A stretch of DNA of 24,245 nucleotides from a virus, in IMG/VR virus record IMGVR_UViG_3300025133_003253, positions 1 through 24,245 of that record. One strand, 5' to 3'. Both the position numbers and the translations under genes were made by a program. Every line of letters starts with the position of its first letter. The first letter of the stretch is position 1. Shown here one piece after another: positions 3,547 to 24,245 of the stretch. The notes beneath the pieces were generated by a model that was not told the DNA's origin, made no database searches, and saw only the letters and a list, made by a program, of their open reading frames with translations.

Positions 3547-4546
3547 CTGGTAGTGGGTCTCCTTTCTTTAGCAGAGAGTATCCTTCCATTAAATTTTCTT
3601 TAGTTAAGGTAGGAGATACATCGCAGTTCTCGACATAATCAGTAATAATCTGCTCGTTAATCGTAAACAGATCTCTATTAGGTTTATACTTAGATATTTC
3701 ATCATCATCTCCAAACGCAGGAGCTACTTTAATATCTAATTCCTCCACACGCAAGTTCTCAGATAGTTCAGAGGCAGACTCATCTGATCGTAATGCTACT
3801 CGTAACATAGTATACCAACTAGCGTCACTTAATTCCTTAGCACGATCATTAGCATCCTCTAAAGAAGTTACCACATGTCTGGGTCCGAATCGTATTTCTT
3901 TGAATTCTTCTCTGACAGGTCCGAGGACTTCTTCATGAAGGACAAGATAATATCCTTGGGCTCCTGCTTCACCATAGTTTGTGCTGTACGGAGTACCAAG
4001 AATTGTAACCAATCCATTTTGTTTAAAGTTATGAATATGTCCAAGGTAAGTTTTACACTTAAAGTCAGAGATGCTAAGAGTAGAATCGGCATCACCAACA
4101 GAATTGAGACTACCGAGATAACCAAAGTGCCCAAAAGCTTGAGCGTTTTGAGGGCACCGTGACAGATACGCTCTAATAGTGTCCTCATTTTCGTAATGTG
4201 GGATGAAATATTTATCATTATAAACTCCAAATCGGTTCCAAACATGGACATACTGAGATCTATACACTTCTAATGCTGTCAGACCATTATCTGATTTATC
4301 AGCAGAATCGTGATTGCCTCTCAAAAGGTGTACAGTTATACTAGCATCTGTCCAAATGTCTAGCAACTCTTTAAACCCAACCAATACTTTTGGAGTGGGA
4401 TTTCTATGCATGAATATGTCCCCTAGAAAAATAATCTCTCCAGGATTCTCTTCAGCAATAATAGATTCTATAGTAGCTAGTTGAGCATTAAGATGCCCCC
4501 TACTTTTACTATCTAAATGAATGTCTCCTATAACTACAGTTCTCAT
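3536..4546 (-). CDS. SbcD/gp47-like Mre11-family nuclease
   Basis: Calcineurin-like phosphoesterase subunit that would cut DNA together with the SbcC-like ATPase, in end resection for recombination-dependent replication. Metal-binding motifs are in the usual order: GDIH (7-10), GD (42-43), GNHD (77-80), GH (138-139) and GHIH (168-171). The 336-residue length fits T4 gp47 (about 340). The remaining C-terminal part would be the DNA-binding cap and the partner-binding segment. The ATG overlaps the polymerase stop as ATGA and has GGAG upstream, so translation is probably coupled. Nothing appears broken. Confidence 0.93.
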   Translation of the reverse strand: MRTVVIGDIHLDSKSRGHLNAQLATIESIIAEENPGEIIFLGDIFMHRNPTPKVLVGFKELLDIWTDASITVHLLRGNHDSADKSDNGLTALEVYRSQYVHVWNRFGVYNDKYFIPHYENEDTIRAYLSRCPQNAQAFGHFGYLGSLNSVGDADSTLSISDFKCKTYLGHIHNFKQNGLVTILGTPYSTNYGEAGAQGYYLVLHEEVLGPVREEFKEIRFGPRHVVTSLEDANDRAKELSDASWYTMLRVALRSDESASELSENLRVEELDIKVAPAFGDDDEISKYKPNRDLFTINEQIITDYVENCDVSPTLTKENLMEGYSLLKKGDPLPDED

Positions 4547-5616
4547 AGAACAGGTCTCCCATCTTTAAACTCTACCTCTTTACCATCCCCAAAGGAAGTG
4601 CCTACTTCAGCATCAATCTTTAAAGGAAGGTTAAACTGAATACCGAAGTCCTTCTTAACTGTCTTATAGTTTACCATCTCATCGTACACAATCTCTAGCA
4701 CCTCCTCCACCTCATCGTGAGGAGCGATAATCTCTACAGAGTCATGTACGGTTGCTACGATACGGGCATTGAGTCCCTTAAACGATTGCGTGATACCTTT
4801 GATCGCACAGAGCAGTATGTCAGACGCTGCGCTTTGGATTGTAAAGTTGAGTCCTTGTCGGAGCGCACCTTTAGAAACTTGATTATCGCGTGAAGTAACA
4901 TCAGGGAGATGCCTACGCCTCCCAAATATAGTATATGCATATTGGTTTTGCCTAATAAAATCATGGACGAAATCCATGTAGCGGAAAATGCCAGGATAAA
5001 CTTCTGCGTACTTTTCAATTATCTTTTCTGCTCTTCTTTGTGAGATGCCTGTAGTTTCCGAAAGACGGTACGCCCCACCTCCATAAGCAATAAGGAACGA
5101 TACCGCTTTAGCAATCTGCCGTTCCTGCTTCTTAATCTTCTCTTCTTTCTTTTGGAACAACAAACTTGCCGTATAAGTATGTAGATCTACTCCAGCAGTA
5201 AATGCCTCCTGCATCTTAGTTTCTTTAGCAATGTGTGCTAGAACCCTCAACTCCATCGCAGCATAGTCTACAGTAATAAAAGAGTATCCTTCGGGAGCAG
5301 TGAACATACTTCTTATATTGTGCTTGTCCTCTCTGGGGAGTGTGTGGAACGATACACCCATATTACTATAAGAAGCACAACTAAGACGACCAGTTAGAGT
5401 CCCGTCCATTCGGTAATCTACATACACCTTATTAACATCATTAATATCTACTGCTCTCTTAATACCATTCACATAAGTATTATACAGCTTTTGTACTTTG
5501 CGTAGCTCTAATAAGGAATCTAACCAACCCTTAGCTTCGCGCAAATCTTCTGTAGACTTCTTGCTAATATAGTCTGCGCTGATCTGCTTGTCTAGGTTTT
5601 TATTTCTTCTTGCCAC
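4543..5616 (-). CDS. Family A DNA polymerase, polymerase-domain piece
   Basis: Palm, fingers and thumb of a PolA-type replicase, encoded without an exonuclease domain. The 357 residues carry the thumb motif KLYNTYV (43-49), TGRLS (75-79), motif A as DYAAMELR (117-124, usually DYSQIELR), motif B as R166...K170...F174...Y178 (the O-helix, usually R...K...NFG..YG) and motif C as VHDS (290-293, usually VHDE). Both metal-binding aspartates, D117 and D292, are present; Ser replaces the Glu after D292, with a Glu two residues later (E295). Phe at 174 is the usual natural residue of the O-helix. The GTG start at 5616 lies inside the preceding gene (17-base overlap, +1 frame) and has GGAG 10 bases upstream. 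The remainder of the enzyme is encoded by the two upstream genes. Confidence 0.92.
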   Translation of the reverse strand: MARRNKNLDKQISADYISKKSTEDLREAKGWLDSLLELRKVQKLYNTYVNGIKRAVDINDVNKVYVDYRMDGTLTGRLSCASYSNMGVSFHTLPREDKHNIRSMFTAPEGYSFITVDYAAMELRVLAHIAKETKMQEAFTAGVDLHTYTASLLFQKKEEKIKKQERQIAKAVSFLIAYGGGAYRLSETTGISQRRAEKIIEKYAEVYPGIFRYMDFVHDFIRQNQYAYTIFGRRRHLPDVTSRDNQVSKGALRQGLNFTIQSAASDILLCAIKGITQSFKGLNARIVATVHDSVEIIAPHDEVEEVLEIVYDEMVNYKTVKKDFGIQFNLPLKIDAEVGTSFGDGKEVEFKDGRPVL

Positions 5617-6085
5617 GCTTTTCTAACTCCGCTTCAATTTGGGTTAAAAGTGTATCTAGGGATTGTTTGTTAGTAGAAGGATTTCCTTTACTTGTCATTA
5701 CAGGGGGGTAAAAACCAAACCCCGAATCAGAGTAGAGAATATCAATAAGATTTTTTGTAGACAACAAGTTTGCAGTCTTCGCTACCTTGTCTGACACATA
5801 CAATCCATCTTCAATATCCATCAACAACTGATTCAGGGTTTGGCCCACCACACCCAACTCGTCTAAGCTAACATCCAATCCTTTATACTCAATGTCTGCG
5901 AATACAGGGAAAAGAGGAGAAAGAAGTTTGTCTAGCACAGGTAATGTCCCGTTCGCCACCAGTTTGTCCCTTAGTTCATCATATATCCTCAAAGTATATG
6001 AGGCATCTAAGGCATTACCCGTTGCACACTCTTCCAGGGTAAGTGCGGCCCAATCAAACTTCTTTCCCTCTTTTACTGTAAGCAC
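5600..6085 (-). CDS. Family A DNA polymerase, middle piece (Exo III segment and linker)
   Basis: A 161-residue protein corresponding to the end of the PolA 3'-5' exonuclease domain and the start of the thumb region. GKKFDWAALTLEECATGNALD (7-27) aligns with the Exo III helix of PolA proteins: D27 is the expected metal-binding Asp, but the usual Tyr four residues before it is Gly23. Residues 105-155 match the PolA segment before the thumb, which usually reads like NLNSPKQLAEILY. The GTG start at 6085 overlaps the upstream stop as TAGTG, with GGAG 8 bases ahead. Alone it could not fold as an exonuclease, so it presumably assembles with the flanking pieces. A frameshift product or an assembly error is the alternative. 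Confidence 0.85.
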   Translation of the reverse strand: MLTVKEGKKFDWAALTLEECATGNALDASYTLRIYDELRDKLVANGTLPVLDKLLSPLFPVFADIEYKGLDVSLDELGVVGQTLNQLLMDIEDGLYVSDKVAKTANLLSTKNLIDILYSDSGFGFYPPVMTSKGNPSTNKQSLDTLLTQIEAELEKRGKKK

Positions 6086-7095
6086 TAGAAGTTCTCCAAT
6101 TCTTCAGGGAAGAAGAGTTTCACTAGATCCATGAGACTCTTAGGGAGGACTTCGTTATACAGGTGTGCCATGATTTTTGTATCGTATACATTCACAGGAG
6201 AAATGCCATACTTGAGGAGGAACTTAATATCAAACTTACAGTTCTGGAGGATCTTCTTATTGGATTGATTCTCCAGTACCCACTTCACATGAGTACCCAG
6301 TATACTAGCACCCTCATCCTCAGTAAAAGGACTTTCTCTATGAAATATCGGGATAACCCAATTTCCTTTAGACGTACTAAAGGCTATGGTCATAATGGTG
6401 TCTGTTAAAAAGTTAAGCCCCGTTGTCTCAATGTCACACGCTAGGTCATCGCTAGTTTGGGATAATTCATCACAGACCTTCTCAACATCCTCCATAGTAG
6501 AGAGGAGAGTGTAATCAAAGTCTGCCTTGGTTGTATTCCCAAACACATACTTGTCAACAGAGTTCTTAATGTCCCTCTCAAAGAGAAACTTATTCTTAGG
6601 TTCAACCACTACCTGATAGGGGTGATACAAAGGAACCACATTATACTCTTCGTACTTGTACAGGGAGCCCCTCTTATTAGTAATCCCAGACTTTTTAATA
6701 AGCATCTTCATGGCTAGGTTACCACAAACGAACACTAGCTTAGGTTTGTAGCTATCTATAGTACGAAACAAATGCTCTCTACAAATCTCCCTATCTGATG
6801 GGGTCATGTCAGCATCTTTGACGCTAGGACACTTTACAGATGGAGAGAATGCATAAGAAACTTTAAGTGGGACTATAATATCTTCGATGAGGTCTTTTGC
6901 TTGCTTAGGTAAGGGGATACACTTCCCATTATTTTTACAGGCATAGGACTCAGTAACGAACAATACATCTACGGGCTTAACACTCTCATAATCAACAATA
7001 CAATGTTCAGACTTGTTGATCTTAAGAATGGAGCAACCCTCACATAGAGGATTGATACCCACTCCGCTCTCAGCATATAAATTATTAAGGTTCAT
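6085..7095 (-). CDS. UDG-like domain fused to PolA exonuclease (Exo I and Exo II), N-terminal replicase piece
   Basis: The 336 residues show two domains. Residues 1-185 resemble family 4 uracil-DNA glycosylases. C18, C21, C89 and C105 have the spacing I recall for the iron-sulfur ligands of the Thermus enzyme, and VPLYHPY (154-160) matches the motif with the catalytic-loop His. The usual GE.PG motif is TESYA (48-52), so glycosylase activity is doubtful. Residues 192-336 begin a DnaQ-type exonuclease with Exo I DIETTG (D221, E223) and Exo II NCKFDIKF (N285, D289). The chain then stops, before Exo III, which lies in the next gene. SPO1-type phage polymerases have a similar UDG-like N-terminus, from general knowledge. 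The ATG at 7095 has no Shine-Dalgarno sequence and overlaps the start codon of the divergent sigma gene. Confidence 0.88.
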   Translation of the reverse strand: MNLNNLYAESGVGINPLCEGCSILKINKSEHCIVDYESVKPVDVLFVTESYACKNNGKCIPLPKQAKDLIEDIIVPLKVSYAFSPSVKCPSVKDADMTPSDREICREHLFRTIDSYKPKLVFVCGNLAMKMLIKKSGITNKRGSLYKYEEYNVVPLYHPYQVVVEPKNKFLFERDIKNSVDKYVFGNTTKADFDYTLLSTMEDVEKVCDELSQTSDDLACDIETTGLNFLTDTIMTIAFSTSKGNWVIPIFHRESPFTEDEGASILGTHVKWVLENQSNKKILQNCKFDIKFLLKYGISPVNVYDTKIMAHLYNEVLPKSLMDLVKLFFPEELENF

Positions 7096-7435
7096 GGCGA
7101 AACACTACATAGACAACAAAAGGTTTGAGGAACTGATCTTATTATACCAAGAAGATCCAAGAAAACATGAGGAAGAGCTATTTTCTATGTTTGATCTGCT
7201 AATCCATAACATTGTTAATTCTTACGGATTCACAGTAGATCTAGATGATGCCAAACAAGAATGCTTTGTACTTATTCTTAAGACCATAGGAAAGTTCAAA
7301 CCAGAAAATGGAAAAGCTTTTAATTACTTCACTACAATTATAATGAATAATCTCAGGCTAATCTACACAAAGAATAAGAAATATAAAGAGAAGCTGGATG
7401 CTTACGAAGAACTGATGAAGAATAAGTCTAGCTAA
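7094..7435 (+). CDS. gp55-like late sigma factor
   Basis: A 113-residue protein resembling sigma-70 region 2 and T4-type gp55, which directs host RNA polymerase to late promoters through the -10 box alone. Visible signatures are DDAKQECF (51-58, the DxxQE-type helix) and KFKPENGKAFNYFTTIIMNN (67-86), the FdpekgkaFnYf-type segment of region 2. Region 4 is absent, as in gp55. A longer frame reaches back to 7013, but those extra residues mirror the polymerase gene and look non-native, and YIDNKRFEELI near residue 6 looks like a normal gp55 beginning. The ATG shares two bases with the divergent polymerase ATG. AAGG lies only 3 bases before the start, which is a poor spacing. The 3' end overlaps the converging 99-residue gene by 4 bases. 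Confidence 0.75.
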   Translation: MAKHYIDNKRFEELILLYQEDPRKHEEELFSMFDLLIHNIVNSYGFTVDLDDAKQECFVLILKTIGKFKPENGKAFNYFTTIIMNNLRLIYTKNKKYKEKLDAYEELMKNKSS

Positions 7436-17243: not shown

Positions 17244-18752
17244 TTAAGCAGTAGCACCACTATTAGAACTAGCAGTCTTAGTCCATCCACCAAGCAGACC
17301 CGAAGGACCAGCAAAACGAATAACGCGATAGAATCTAGATGACGGGGTAATAGCAGCTTTGCCATAACGAGTGATCAGACCCTTACGAGGTTGGAAAGTG
17401 TTGGGATCAACGACTTTCGGCAGACCCTGGAGAGGAATGTACGGAGCGTACACATAACCAGCGTCCATAGGACTAGAACCTTTGTAACCCATGAGGATTT
17501 CGTCCTCAGGATACAGAGGATCAACATACATGTCGTAACGACCCATGAACTTACCAACATAAGAAACACCGTTCTTACTCATGTTAGTAGGAGCGTCTGC
17601 ACGATCAATGCCACCTTGAAGCTTGGCCGAAGACTCAAGCATAGAAGCAACAACAGGAGCGCAAAGAATCCAGTTACCAGGACCACGCTGAGTACTCTTG
17701 TAAATGCTTTGAGAAGCAATGTTTAAAAGAGCAAGCAAGTTAGCATAAGTATCGCCAACATGACGAGGAGCAAAGTTCAGAGCAGAGCTACCCCAATCCA
17801 TAAGGAAGATATTCTCCGTAGAATTTCCAGCAGGGTTACCAGTAGCAGTGAACCCACTTTGGAAATCGCCAAAGTTAGAGTCGTTAGTACCAGCAGTCTG
17901 ACCAGCAAAGTTGTTGCTGTTGCCCCAATCAAGGTTAGTTCTGTTAAAAGGAGTGTTATTAGCCCCAGTCACATCGTAAGCAAGCATACGAAGATCTTCA
18001 ATGAGTTCACGGTCGATCTCAAGACGAAGCTCAGAGCTAAGAAGCTCAGTAAGCTCACGCTCAAGGTCCATGTTGTGATAAGCCTTAAGGTCTTGAGAAG
18101 CCTCAAGAGTCCAAAGGGCTCTCATCTTACGAGTACGAGCAACAACAGGCTGTTGCTCGATGTGGAAGGTCATGTCGGGAATACCAGTTCCAGTCAGGAC
18201 CTCACCAGCACTCATCGTGAATCCCCAAGTGCTACCAGAGGCAGCAGGGGGGAAGTTAGCTATCTGACCACCATAGGTGCTAGAAGGACCACCAGCCCCA
18301 CTACCAGCCAGACTCATATTAGAAAGGTCATAAGTATTCTCATCAATAGTATCTGCCAGACCACCAATAGCGGAGGTTTGCATACCACCCCAAGTCAGGT
18401 CGTACTTACTGTAAATATTTCTAGTAGTTCCAGCACCAGTTCTATCAGAACCAAGGTAGAAAATTTGTGAGACGGGGCCGCTCATGGGTTGAACGCCACA
18501 TATCTTATTAGCAATCAGTTCAGGGAAGACTCTACGGACGAGAGGGAATGCGAACTTCTGGAAAGTACCAAGATCCTGAGTACCTGTTTGGGCCTCATCG
18601 AGCTTTTCAGACACGATAGCTTTAGCTTGGTTCTCAAGAAGTTGAGCAGTCACTCTCTGAGTGTAGGAATCCTCGATGCCTTCAAGAACGGGAGCCCACT
18701 TTGCCAGCGTGGCACTATCAGCCCCAGGTTCCATAATTTCAGTATCAATCAT
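17244..18752 (-). CDS. Major capsid protein (gp23-like)
   Basis: The HK97-fold shell protein. At 502 residues it matches T4 gp23 (521). Nearly diagnostic is the stretch FPLVRRVFPELIANKICGVQ (69-88) and the following PMSGPVSQIFYLG. The conserved palm region KMRALWTLEASQDLKAYHNM leads to a DLERELTELLSSELRLEIDRE helix near 227-250. T4 gp23 is cut by gp21 after a Glu in an (L/I)xE site; here LDE at 51-53 is a plausible site, which would remove about 53 residues (inference). The start follows the scaffold stop by 14 bases, with AAGGA inside a 12-bp palindrome. Codons look more GC-rich than in the neighbours, suggesting high expression. A strong terminator follows. Confidence 0.96.
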   Translation of the reverse strand: MIDTEIMEPGADSATLAKWAPVLEGIEDSYTQRVTAQLLENQAKAIVSEKLDEAQTGTQDLGTFQKFAFPLVRRVFPELIANKICGVQPMSGPVSQIFYLGSDRTGAGTTRNIYSKYDLTWGGMQTSAIGGLADTIDENTYDLSNMSLAGSGAGGPSSTYGGQIANFPPAASGSTWGFTMSAGEVLTGTGIPDMTFHIEQQPVVARTRKMRALWTLEASQDLKAYHNMDLERELTELLSSELRLEIDRELIEDLRMLAYDVTGANNTPFNRTNLDWGNSNNFAGQTAGTNDSNFGDFQSGFTATGNPAGNSTENIFLMDWGSSALNFAPRHVGDTYANLLALLNIASQSIYKSTQRGPGNWILCAPVVASMLESSAKLQGGIDRADAPTNMSKNGVSYVGKFMGRYDMYVDPLYPEDEILMGYKGSSPMDAGYVYAPYIPLQGLPKVVDPNTFQPRKGLITRYGKAAITPSSRFYRVIRFAGPSGLLGGWTKTASSNSGATA

Positions 18753-21716: not shown

Positions 21717-22049
21717 CTAGTTCATAGTAACTGTTCTAATAGTAGGACCTAAGATAGTTGTTGCCCCACATCCTCTAAGGTCCCCAACTCCATGCACTGG
21801 TACACCCCTAACGAGAACATTCAAAGACCCTGCAACGGGTCCAGACATCCCCGCTGGGTCCGAAGAATACGAACAATGTGCATCTGGAGAGTCAGGATCA
21901 CAATCGGCATCACTATCTGCCCCAGAGCCCAACCCAGTATTAATAGCTATGGGTAACCCATTAACCGTTACAGAAGGAACGCCACCAACAGCAGTTATAC
22001 TTCCGTTTCCGTGACTAGACATATCTCCTACTACAGCTACTAATTTCAT
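21717..22049 (-). CDS. PAAR-domain spike-tip protein
   Basis: PAAR proteins form a sharp metal-bound cone at the tip of the central spike in contractile tails (T4 gp5.4). The 110 residues begin with GDMSSHGNGSITAVGGVPSV (8-27) and VNGLPIAINTG, the typical repeating beta layout. Candidate metal ligands are H13, H58, H86 and C94, with C50 and C59 nearby. An acidic, Ser-rich loop at 41-64 (GSGADSDADCDPDSPDAHCS) is longer than in minimal PAAR proteins. The start overlaps the upstream gene as ATGA, so the two are translated together and probably meet in the baseplate. Confidence 0.87.
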   Translation of the reverse strand: MKLVAVVGDMSSHGNGSITAVGGVPSVTVNGLPIAINTGLGSGADSDADCDPDSPDAHCSYSSDPAGMSGPVAGSLNVLVRGVPVHGVGDLRGCGATTILGPTIRTVTMN

Positions 22050-24245
22050 GGTAATGGCTCGGGTTCGGGTATTTGGTCTATAAGGGGCTTTTGCTCAAGG
22101 ACTGTGTGAGTCTTAAAGAAATTATCGGTAATAGGAAGCCCATCACTCTTAACATCTCTTACTCTAGGATAGTTAGCATTTACTGTATCATCTGATGAGA
22201 TTTTCCCCATTAAGAATAGAGATTTTTGATTTTCCCAGTTTACACATTCTGTAAATAAGAATTTCATTTTACTTCTATCCATCTTATCATAGACATCATA
22301 CCACATTACATCTCTATTATTACGAAGAACCCAATTGTCCTTAAACTCCTTTAAAGTTTTAAGTATTTGTCTCATCCCAAACATTGGACGCTCTCCTGTG
22401 GGCTGAACATTATCATTTTGATAACGCAGAGAATCCTTCACTTGCTTAGGTGCCATAGAATAATCTAAAGCAAAGAAATCATTCTTCTTAGTTACCTCAA
22501 CCCCTGGATTAGGCCAAGATCTTGATTCCTTTAAATATACTGGCTCCCAGGTGTCGTTCTTTTTAGGATCAGGATTAATATTAAAAGTAATTTCTCGTAC
22601 TCCATAAGAGGACTGCTTAGAAATACTGGGGTATGTTAAATTACCTACCTTATTAGTAGGAATGATAGCAACTGTAAAGGGTATTCTCCTGGGGAATTGT
22701 ACTAACTCCTCATTATCAAACATATCAAATACAAAATCTTTAGAAGTTATTTTAATAGTACCTCCATTAATTATGTAGCTGATAATAGGGTCTGCCCAAT
22801 CAACATAAAATACCATATAAGGCCAAGGCTTAAACTTCACCCAATCCCTTCTAGCGTCTACAGAGTCCATATAGGTATACTCAACTTCTGTCTTAGCTAC
22901 AAAAGCATTCTTTCTGGGTAAGTCGGTTACACCGCTAACCTCTGCTTTGAGGAGGTAGAAATTTTTTCTTGCGTCTGCTACCCCATACCTCTCATCCACT
23001 CTTAAAGTAGGATCAGTAGTAACTTCCATTTTAAAATCATACCTCTCGCCCAAAATAAACATTATTTTTTGTAGGTCTTCTATTTGTATAATTTTTGCTC
23101 TATCATAATCTCCCTGCACGGGAATCTCTTTTACACCATTACCAACAGTAATCTTAACTAACTCCCCATCACTCATAGTAAGAGTACCACTACCATCTAA
23201 TACAATAGTATCATCAGTAGCGAAGTAGAAAGGTGTTACCTCCCCATTAGATCCTCTAACAGGAAGATACTTATTAAGATCGGGAGCTAAAGTTTTCCAC
23301 AACTTAAGACGCTGTTTTGCTAGTTCACCATAACTATCATCCCTAAGATAGTACGAATTTTCTGTGGCTAATCTGAGAGCTTTTGCTTCGGAGGCATGTG
23401 TCCCCCTCACAGTAACTACTGTTCCTCTAGTGTCTGGGTAATTATCTTGCTGATCTAAAATACTTTGTAAAGACTCCACCAACTCATCTCCATCTATAAC
23501 ATCTACTCTATCAGATATGATAAGTCCTCGTATAGTATTTAAGATATGAGGTTTAATAGATTCCCCTGTAGCTAACTTAATCTTATCTAATAGAGGAGGT
23601 AAGTCCTTCCGTAAACTTCTCTCTATATTAGAATTAGACATATTACTATAGGGAAAATCACTAAACTCTTCTAAGTACCTCTTATTAATGTCATGAGTAG
23701 CTCTAATACCCATATGAATATTATCTCTGAATAGAGTCTTGTTGATGAAAGTACTATTAACTATTGGGGTAAAAGTAGATTTTACTCCATACTTTTGATT
23801 GCTATAGTTTCTTTGGAATACAGTATCAATAATATCAGGACGATAAACTTTATTTAATGCCACATCAGTAAAGAAAGGGAAGGGGTATTCTGGTTGCTCT
23901 ATAGAACAGTTCTCAAGAGCTTCCGCTAAAGTATCATACCTACCCTTCTCTGAACAAGGAGTAGAGCAAGGTATACTAATTGTCTTAGCAGTATTAAAAG
24001 TATCACACTTATAGCAATCATGCATACAAGTTTCTTTACAAGACTGCTCGGTGGGCCAACTTCCTTTAGGGCATATTAAAGTCCCTCCATTACTTCTTTT
24101 CCCCCTCGCAGTTTGAGAGCAGCAAGCATCGGTAGACGGAGAACACTCCCAGCAGTTATCGCCAAACCCTTTCCCAGACCCTTGACCACATGGAGTATTC
24201 TCATCATTTGGACACTTATTAGCTTTTACCCAAATACAACCAAGT
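22046..24245 (-). CDS. Large structural protein with Cys-rich segment, 5' end outside the window
   Basis: An ATG at 24025 would give 659 residues, but the same frame stays open for a further 73 codons to the window edge with no stop, no ATG and no good ribosome site at 24025. The gene therefore most likely begins outside. The visible 732 residues start with a Cys-rich segment: 15 Cys in the first 113 residues, with pairs such as CWEC, CC and CYKC. The remaining 620 have only one Cys (FLFTECVNW). The rest looks like mixed alpha/beta with aromatic-rich strands (KFKPWPYMVFYVDWADPIIS) and ends in a proline/acid tail. I do not recognise the family. ATGA overlap with the PAAR gene suggests a baseplate, hub or spike protein. 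Confidence 0.8.
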   Translation of the reverse strand, partial: LGCIWVKANKCPNDENTPCGQGSGKGFGDNCWECSPSTDACCSQTARGKRSNGGTLICPKGSWPTEQSCKETCMHDCYKCDTFNTAKTISIPCSTPCSEKGRYDTLAEALENCSIEQPEYPFPFFTDVALNKVYRPDIIDTVFQRNYSNQKYGVKSTFTPIVNSTFINKTLFRDNIHMGIRATHDINKRYLEEFSDFPYSNMSNSNIERSLRKDLPPLLDKIKLATGESIKPHILNTIRGLIISDRVDVIDGDELVESLQSILDQQDNYPDTRGTVVTVRGTHASEAKALRLATENSYYLRDDSYGELAKQRLKLWKTLAPDLNKYLPVRGSNGEVTPFYFATDDTIVLDGSGTLTMSDGELVKITVGNGVKEIPVQGDYDRAKIIQIEDLQKIMFILGERYDFKMEVTTDPTLRVDERYGVADARKNFYLLKAEVSGVTDLPRKNAFVAKTEVEYTYMDSVDARRDWVKFKPWPYMVFYVDWADPIISYIINGGTIKITSKDFVFDMFDNEELVQFPRRIPFTVAIIPTNKVGNLTYPSISKQSSYGVREITFNINPDPKKNDTWEPVYLKESRSWPNPGVEVTKKNDFFALDYSMAPKQVKDSLRYQNDNVQPTGERPMFGMRQILKTLKEFKDNWVLRNNRDVMWYDVYDKMDRSKMKFLFTECVNWENQKSLFLMGKISSDDTVNANYPRVRDVKSDGLPITDNFFKTHTVLEQKPLIDQIPEPEPLP

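Follow-up and report, generated by a model that had tools for sequence, protein, structure and literature searches.

A cysteine-rich domain array in a baseplate-region protein of uncultivated T4-type phages

The locus and the complete gene

The window analysed here is an entire viral contig of 24,245 bp. Judging from its gene content, the locus is a T4-type structural operon comprising wedge, sheath, tube, protease and Gp23 genes. Upstream of the cysteine-rich gene lie gp53-, gp25- and gp6-like wedge proteins together with a protein containing a Tail_P2_I domain, followed, towards the array gene, by fibre-like ORFs and by an unnamed protein whose N-terminal half is conserved; downstream come a PAAR protein, an S77 protease and the Gp23 capsid protein, and then sheath and tube. 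These surroundings bear out an earlier note on this DNA, which had assigned the cysteine-rich part to a protein of the baseplate region. The closest isolates by capsid are T4-like cyanophages (~31% identity), and from this similarity the phage is probably of marine origin.

Several other features of these contigs deserve mention. The unnamed baseplate-type gene upstream (L003:1960-3906 in the focal phage) has a counterpart in two relatives, L070 and L087, in which its 3' part (L070:2927-3493) forms another stretch, in addition to the one described below, over which blastn finds no similarity between the two, embedded in DNA that is otherwise 82-90% identical. On contig L005, the Tail_P2_I protein (L005:9711-14612; 1,633 residues) has a smaller group of cysteines around residue 1401, with six Cys within 80 residues. 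Within the window, three overlapping minus-strand ORFs (4543-7095) resemble one split family-A DNA polymerase, the first of them with a Cys-rich N-terminal part (3.3% Cys), and a short ORF on the opposite, plus strand (7013-7435) looks sigma-factor-like by eye. The features on which the following analysis is based are, in window coordinates:

22046..24245, minus strand: window part of the 1,429-residue protein, residues 698-1429; the gene runs on to the ATG at L003:3910
23906..24244, minus strand: end of the Cys-rich array, residues 698-810, with 15 Cys
24026..24154, minus strand: module B, residues 728-770, CWxC..CC..CP.G..C...C; also present close to the body in relatives
23906..24016, minus strand: module C, residues 774-810, CYKC...C...C...C, adjoining the body
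22046..23905, minus strand: conserved Cys-poor body, residues 811-1429, plus stop; common to all family members
21717..22049, minus strand: PAAR-motif protein, overlapping the body stop by four bases (Pfam PF05488, E=3.9e-6)
17244..18752, minus strand: Gp23-type major capsid protein (Pfam PF07068, E=2.7e-80)

The minus-strand ORF runs uninterrupted from the edge of the window to its stop at 22046, and no stop codon separates the edge (24244) from the first in-window ATG at 24025. By scanning viral contigs, we found a 49,208-bp record, IMGVR_UViG_3300008050_000068 (L003), which reaches past the window edge and, over the 6,349 bp that it shares with the window, differs from it only by a silent TGC/TGT change in a Cys codon at window 24119. 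On L003, the frame extends for 697 codons past the edge to an ATG at L003:3910, right behind the stop of the upstream gene. The suspicion that the first in-window ATG is not the start was therefore correct: given that the extension consists of coding repeats (units U1 and U4, described below, share 8/8 Cys and 53% of their other residues), a start at 24025 is rejected. An assembly artefact is rejected as well, since the two contigs are in agreement and many others show this architecture.

The complete protein has 1,429 residues and 81 Cys, 80 of which fall into residues 1-810 (9.9%) and one into the 619-residue body (residues 811-1429). The contrast first noticed at the window edge, 15 Cys in 113 residues (23906-24244) against one in the following 619, is thus real, as is the position directly upstream of the PAAR gene. 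The interval originally given for it (23680-24245) was drawn too wide: 23906-24244 is Cys-rich, whereas 23680-23905 already belongs to the Cys-poor body. Similarly, what had been described as a small module is indeed Cys-rich but is really the last seventh of an 810-residue array. The enrichment is not a matter of chance, since every other ORF examined in the window and its extension contains at most 3.3% Cys, and ten further relatives are equally enriched.

Architecture of the array and its family

Four related eight-Cys units, U1-U4, are located at residues 4-69, 206-270, 279-349 and 353-421, together with a degenerate unit of this type at residues 114-182. All eight Cys columns are kept in U1, U2 and U4, with 21-53% identity elsewhere, and some units are separated by Gly/Pro/Asp-rich linkers. 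Modules B and C (residues 728-810) adjoin the body, and the B motif CWxC..CC..CP is also present near the body in L016, L019, L070, L087 and L088. A tag of the type W/F-I-x-C-x-L-x-x-P-G-x-x-P-P-G opens most of the related proteins; it is internal in the focal one, where it lies behind U1 at ~residues 77-92. Given this position, and since none of the common start codons is listed in frame from residue 23 to the tag, U1 seems to have been added at the N-terminus of the focal protein. A profile seeded with the focal units gave no match beyond the five focal units; what links the units of different phages is therefore their position and the spacing of their cysteines, and not a profile that could be detected.

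Capsid- (Gp23) and body-based scans of viral contigs added about seventeen distinct proteins with a related body to the focal one, ~fifteen of them full length. In eleven proteins, including the focal one, the N-terminal parts contain 9.5-12.9% Cys (31-80 Cys) and the bodies 0-2 Cys. The arrays of L082 and L101 are sparser (~7% Cys), the N-terminal parts of L044, L029 and L103 are Pro/Gly-rich with few Cys, and L063 and L056 show sub-threshold FN3 matches in this position. Further variants include repeats of the GCTNPAAxNYNPEAxxDDGGC type ahead of a related body in L030:3-2252, and the close relatives L105 and L106, whose N-terminal parts differ in the number of GPGDPGGPD-type linker repeats. 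With the focal array and body and with L044, L063 and L101 as queries, tblastn detected no relatives in isolated phages, and none were found in plasmids or the bacterial and archaeal genome collection. Searches of Pfam, PHROGs, NCBIfam and PDB returned no family match; isolated PHROGs matches were obtained for single members of the body alignment, none of them common to two members.

Structure prediction with AF2 for the window ORF (12 sequences; pLDDT 67.5) yielded a mixed alpha/beta body, much of it at 70-90, and modules B and C at ~65-74 pLDDT, predicted as strands and short helices. A Foldseek search of this model against PDB and BFVD returned nothing significant. Assignment of the body to a known wedge or baseplate protein was likewise rejected, with no family, PDB or Foldseek match; as the body lacks a recognisable relative or fold, its placement in the baseplate rests on gene order. 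For unit U4, a hand-assembled alignment of 12 units led to a confident prediction (pLDDT 88.7, pTM 0.77) of a compact fold, with strands at 4-9 and 20-24, a short helix, strands at 48-50 and 56-58, and a final helix at 63-70. The model thus combines a conserved Cys framework with a compact unit, as would be expected of a small disulfide-rich domain. Comparison with PDB gave no match (best E 1.3; weak E-values are expected for domains so small), and membership in the Kunitz or knottin families, suggested by the hairpin and the CxxxC helix, was discarded for want of a sequence, profile or fold match.

Module exchange, cysteine spacing and alternative explanations

The closest pair of relatives, L070 and L087, have bodies that are 94% identical and a tag and first unit that are 95% identical, and their modules B and C are 37% identical in protein and 53% in DNA, with ~325 bp lacking blastn similarity. 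In this stretch, 12/12 Cys columns are kept, compared with 29% of the other positions. The synonymous divergence (dS) of the pair is about 1.1-1.3 in modules B and C versus 0.15-0.26 in the body, and dN/dS above 1 was not found. Such a localised jump in dS points to replacement of the two modules by recombination, rather than to point-by-point positive selection. A second comparison involves L101, which carries four tandem copies of an 8-Cys unit versus one in L082; the bodies of the two are 84% identical, and adjacent copies in L101 share 74-84% of their DNA. Together, these differences indicate that phages of this family exchange and multiply modules but retain the Cys framework and the body, and the array therefore presents itself as a hypervariable, exchangeable domain on a conserved anchor, as is characteristic of receptor-binding or adhesion modules.

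Changes in unit copy number could also occur in a passive spacer or decoration, that is, a flexible and stable coat with no specific ligand, whose length and sequence drift freely. The Gly/Pro linkers, the low-complexity Pro/Gly stretches that replace the array in some relatives and the lack of dN/dS values above 1 agree with this explanation. However, drift would hardly retain every cysteine of the exchanged stretch beside a body as conserved as that of L070 and L087, and the jump in dS marks a localised replacement instead, which makes a mere spacer unlikely.

We consider it less probable again that the cysteines act as a disulfide clamp, cross-linking neighbouring baseplate or fibre subunits and thereby locking the tail until it is reduced at the host surface. 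Phage Milano, whose tail and baseplate contain an extensive inter-subunit disulfide network (PMC10811340), offers a precedent, and one Cys of the N-terminal tag, which is conserved in nearly all members, could be inter-chain. Yet the Milano cysteines are spread over many structural proteins, whereas here nearly all of them reside in one. In addition, the fixed eight-Cys spacing of the repeats points to closed units, and L044, L056, L063, L029 and L103 have almost no Cys despite their similar bodies.

Cysteine spacing was pooled over the eleven Cys-rich N-terminal parts and compared with the expectation from shuffling. CxxC shows no enrichment (47 against 62 expected), CxC and CC occur less often than expected (12 and 21, respectively, against about 61), and C-x6-C occurs more often (85 against 61); Trp is 3.3-fold enriched at position -2 of Cys, and His residues are few. 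By these counts, the pattern fits small disulfide domains and is unlike those of zinc, iron-sulfur or metallothionein-type proteins. The earlier note had read pairs such as CxxC, CC and CxxxC as a sign of metal-binding or disulfide-rich domains and had proposed, as one possibility, a zinc or iron-sulfur stabilised tip; the spacing does not favour this idea, and nothing places the array at the tip of the spike. Its other suggestion, a receptor-binding knot-like module, is the better of the two in view of the fixed Cys framework, the very variable other residues, the module exchange and the predicted compact fold, although no match to knot families was found. Phage spike and tail-tip proteins with bound metal are known, and the high Cys content and the PAAR gene that directly follows would suit a zinc, iron-sulfur or metallothionein-like array for stability or metal capture, but the Cys spacing, the scarcity of His and a predicted hairpin-and-helix unit typical of small disulfide domains leave this as the least probable explanation.

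Proposed function and comparison with known systems

We therefore favour, at a probability just above one half, a baseplate-anchored body bearing an exposed array of internally disulfide-held modules for host recognition or adhesion. The location of the gene and the conservation of the C-terminal body make it probable that this body is incorporated into the baseplate of an uncultivated T4-type phage. The N-terminal 810 residues form a string of small Cys-rich modules, which probably project from the particle. Internal disulfides most likely provide the core around which each module folds; they may be closed during assembly, or post-lysis in oxygenated water, and would hold variable loops binding the host-cell surface. 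Related phages add, lose and recombine modules on a body that does not change with them. In marine myophages, hypervariable regions for host recognition are known to lie among the structural genes (PMC7029224, PMC3909814), and disulfides do occur in a contractile-tail baseplate (PMC10811340).

Two points count against internally disulfide-held modules: the Cys counts of the N-terminal parts are not always even, and the bacterial cytoplasm, where the protein is made, is normally reducing. A phage thioredoxin was considered as an oxidation partner and rejected; a search of 16 related records gave none that reached the family cut-off, and the one match below it is on the L055 contig, where no relative of the body was found. 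Extended to the whole lineage, the proposal becomes more tentative: arrays of Cys-scaffolded domains with a new fold might serve as evolvable recognition modules of the baseplate, and each chain would then form as many as ~40 disulfides without passing through a secretory pathway.

As recognition modules, phages usually employ beta-rich fibres, or lectin-like or Ig-like domains. Up to 80 Cys in a protein from a normally reducing cytoplasm are unexpected, and when and how disulfides form is a testable question. If the modules bind hosts, they would amount to a natural collection of small, stable scaffolds carrying variable loops. The family also marks a T4-type phage lineage without a close cultured relative and offers a way to approach its host recognition. 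The array is real, recurs in the lineage and, within the reach of these tools, has not been described before; the literature search, which was confined to open-access papers, turned up no account of Cys arrays of this kind in phage baseplates.

Similar to knottins, Kunitz and other small disulfide-rich domains, the units keep their Cys framework while other residues vary, and they share hairpins and a terminal CxxxC helix; given that there is no sequence or fold match, this likeness is an analogy only. The host-recognition cluster of pelagimyophages and cyanomyophages is likewise a hypervariable region within marine T4-type structural genes (PMC7029224). The main text of that study does not mention cysteine, however, and the variability described here lies inside one gene with a fixed body. 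Agrobacterium phage Milano resembles the focal phage in its contractile tail and abundant Cys, baseplate included, and its tail has been proposed to be locked by disulfides until reduction at the host surface (PMC10811340). In contrast to Milano, where the bonds link subunits of many proteins with ~2% Cys, the focal case concerns one protein with ~10% Cys in repeated units. Finally, Ig-like and fibronectin-III accessory domains are also exchangeable surface domains on a conserved virion protein, and the sub-threshold FN3 matches of L063 and L056 occupy the same position as the array. The focal modules differ from these domains in being Cys-rich, in forming long arrays and in matching neither Ig nor FN3 by sequence or fold. 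That phage structural proteins carry exchangeable accessory domains is already known, and what is unusual here is the cysteine content.
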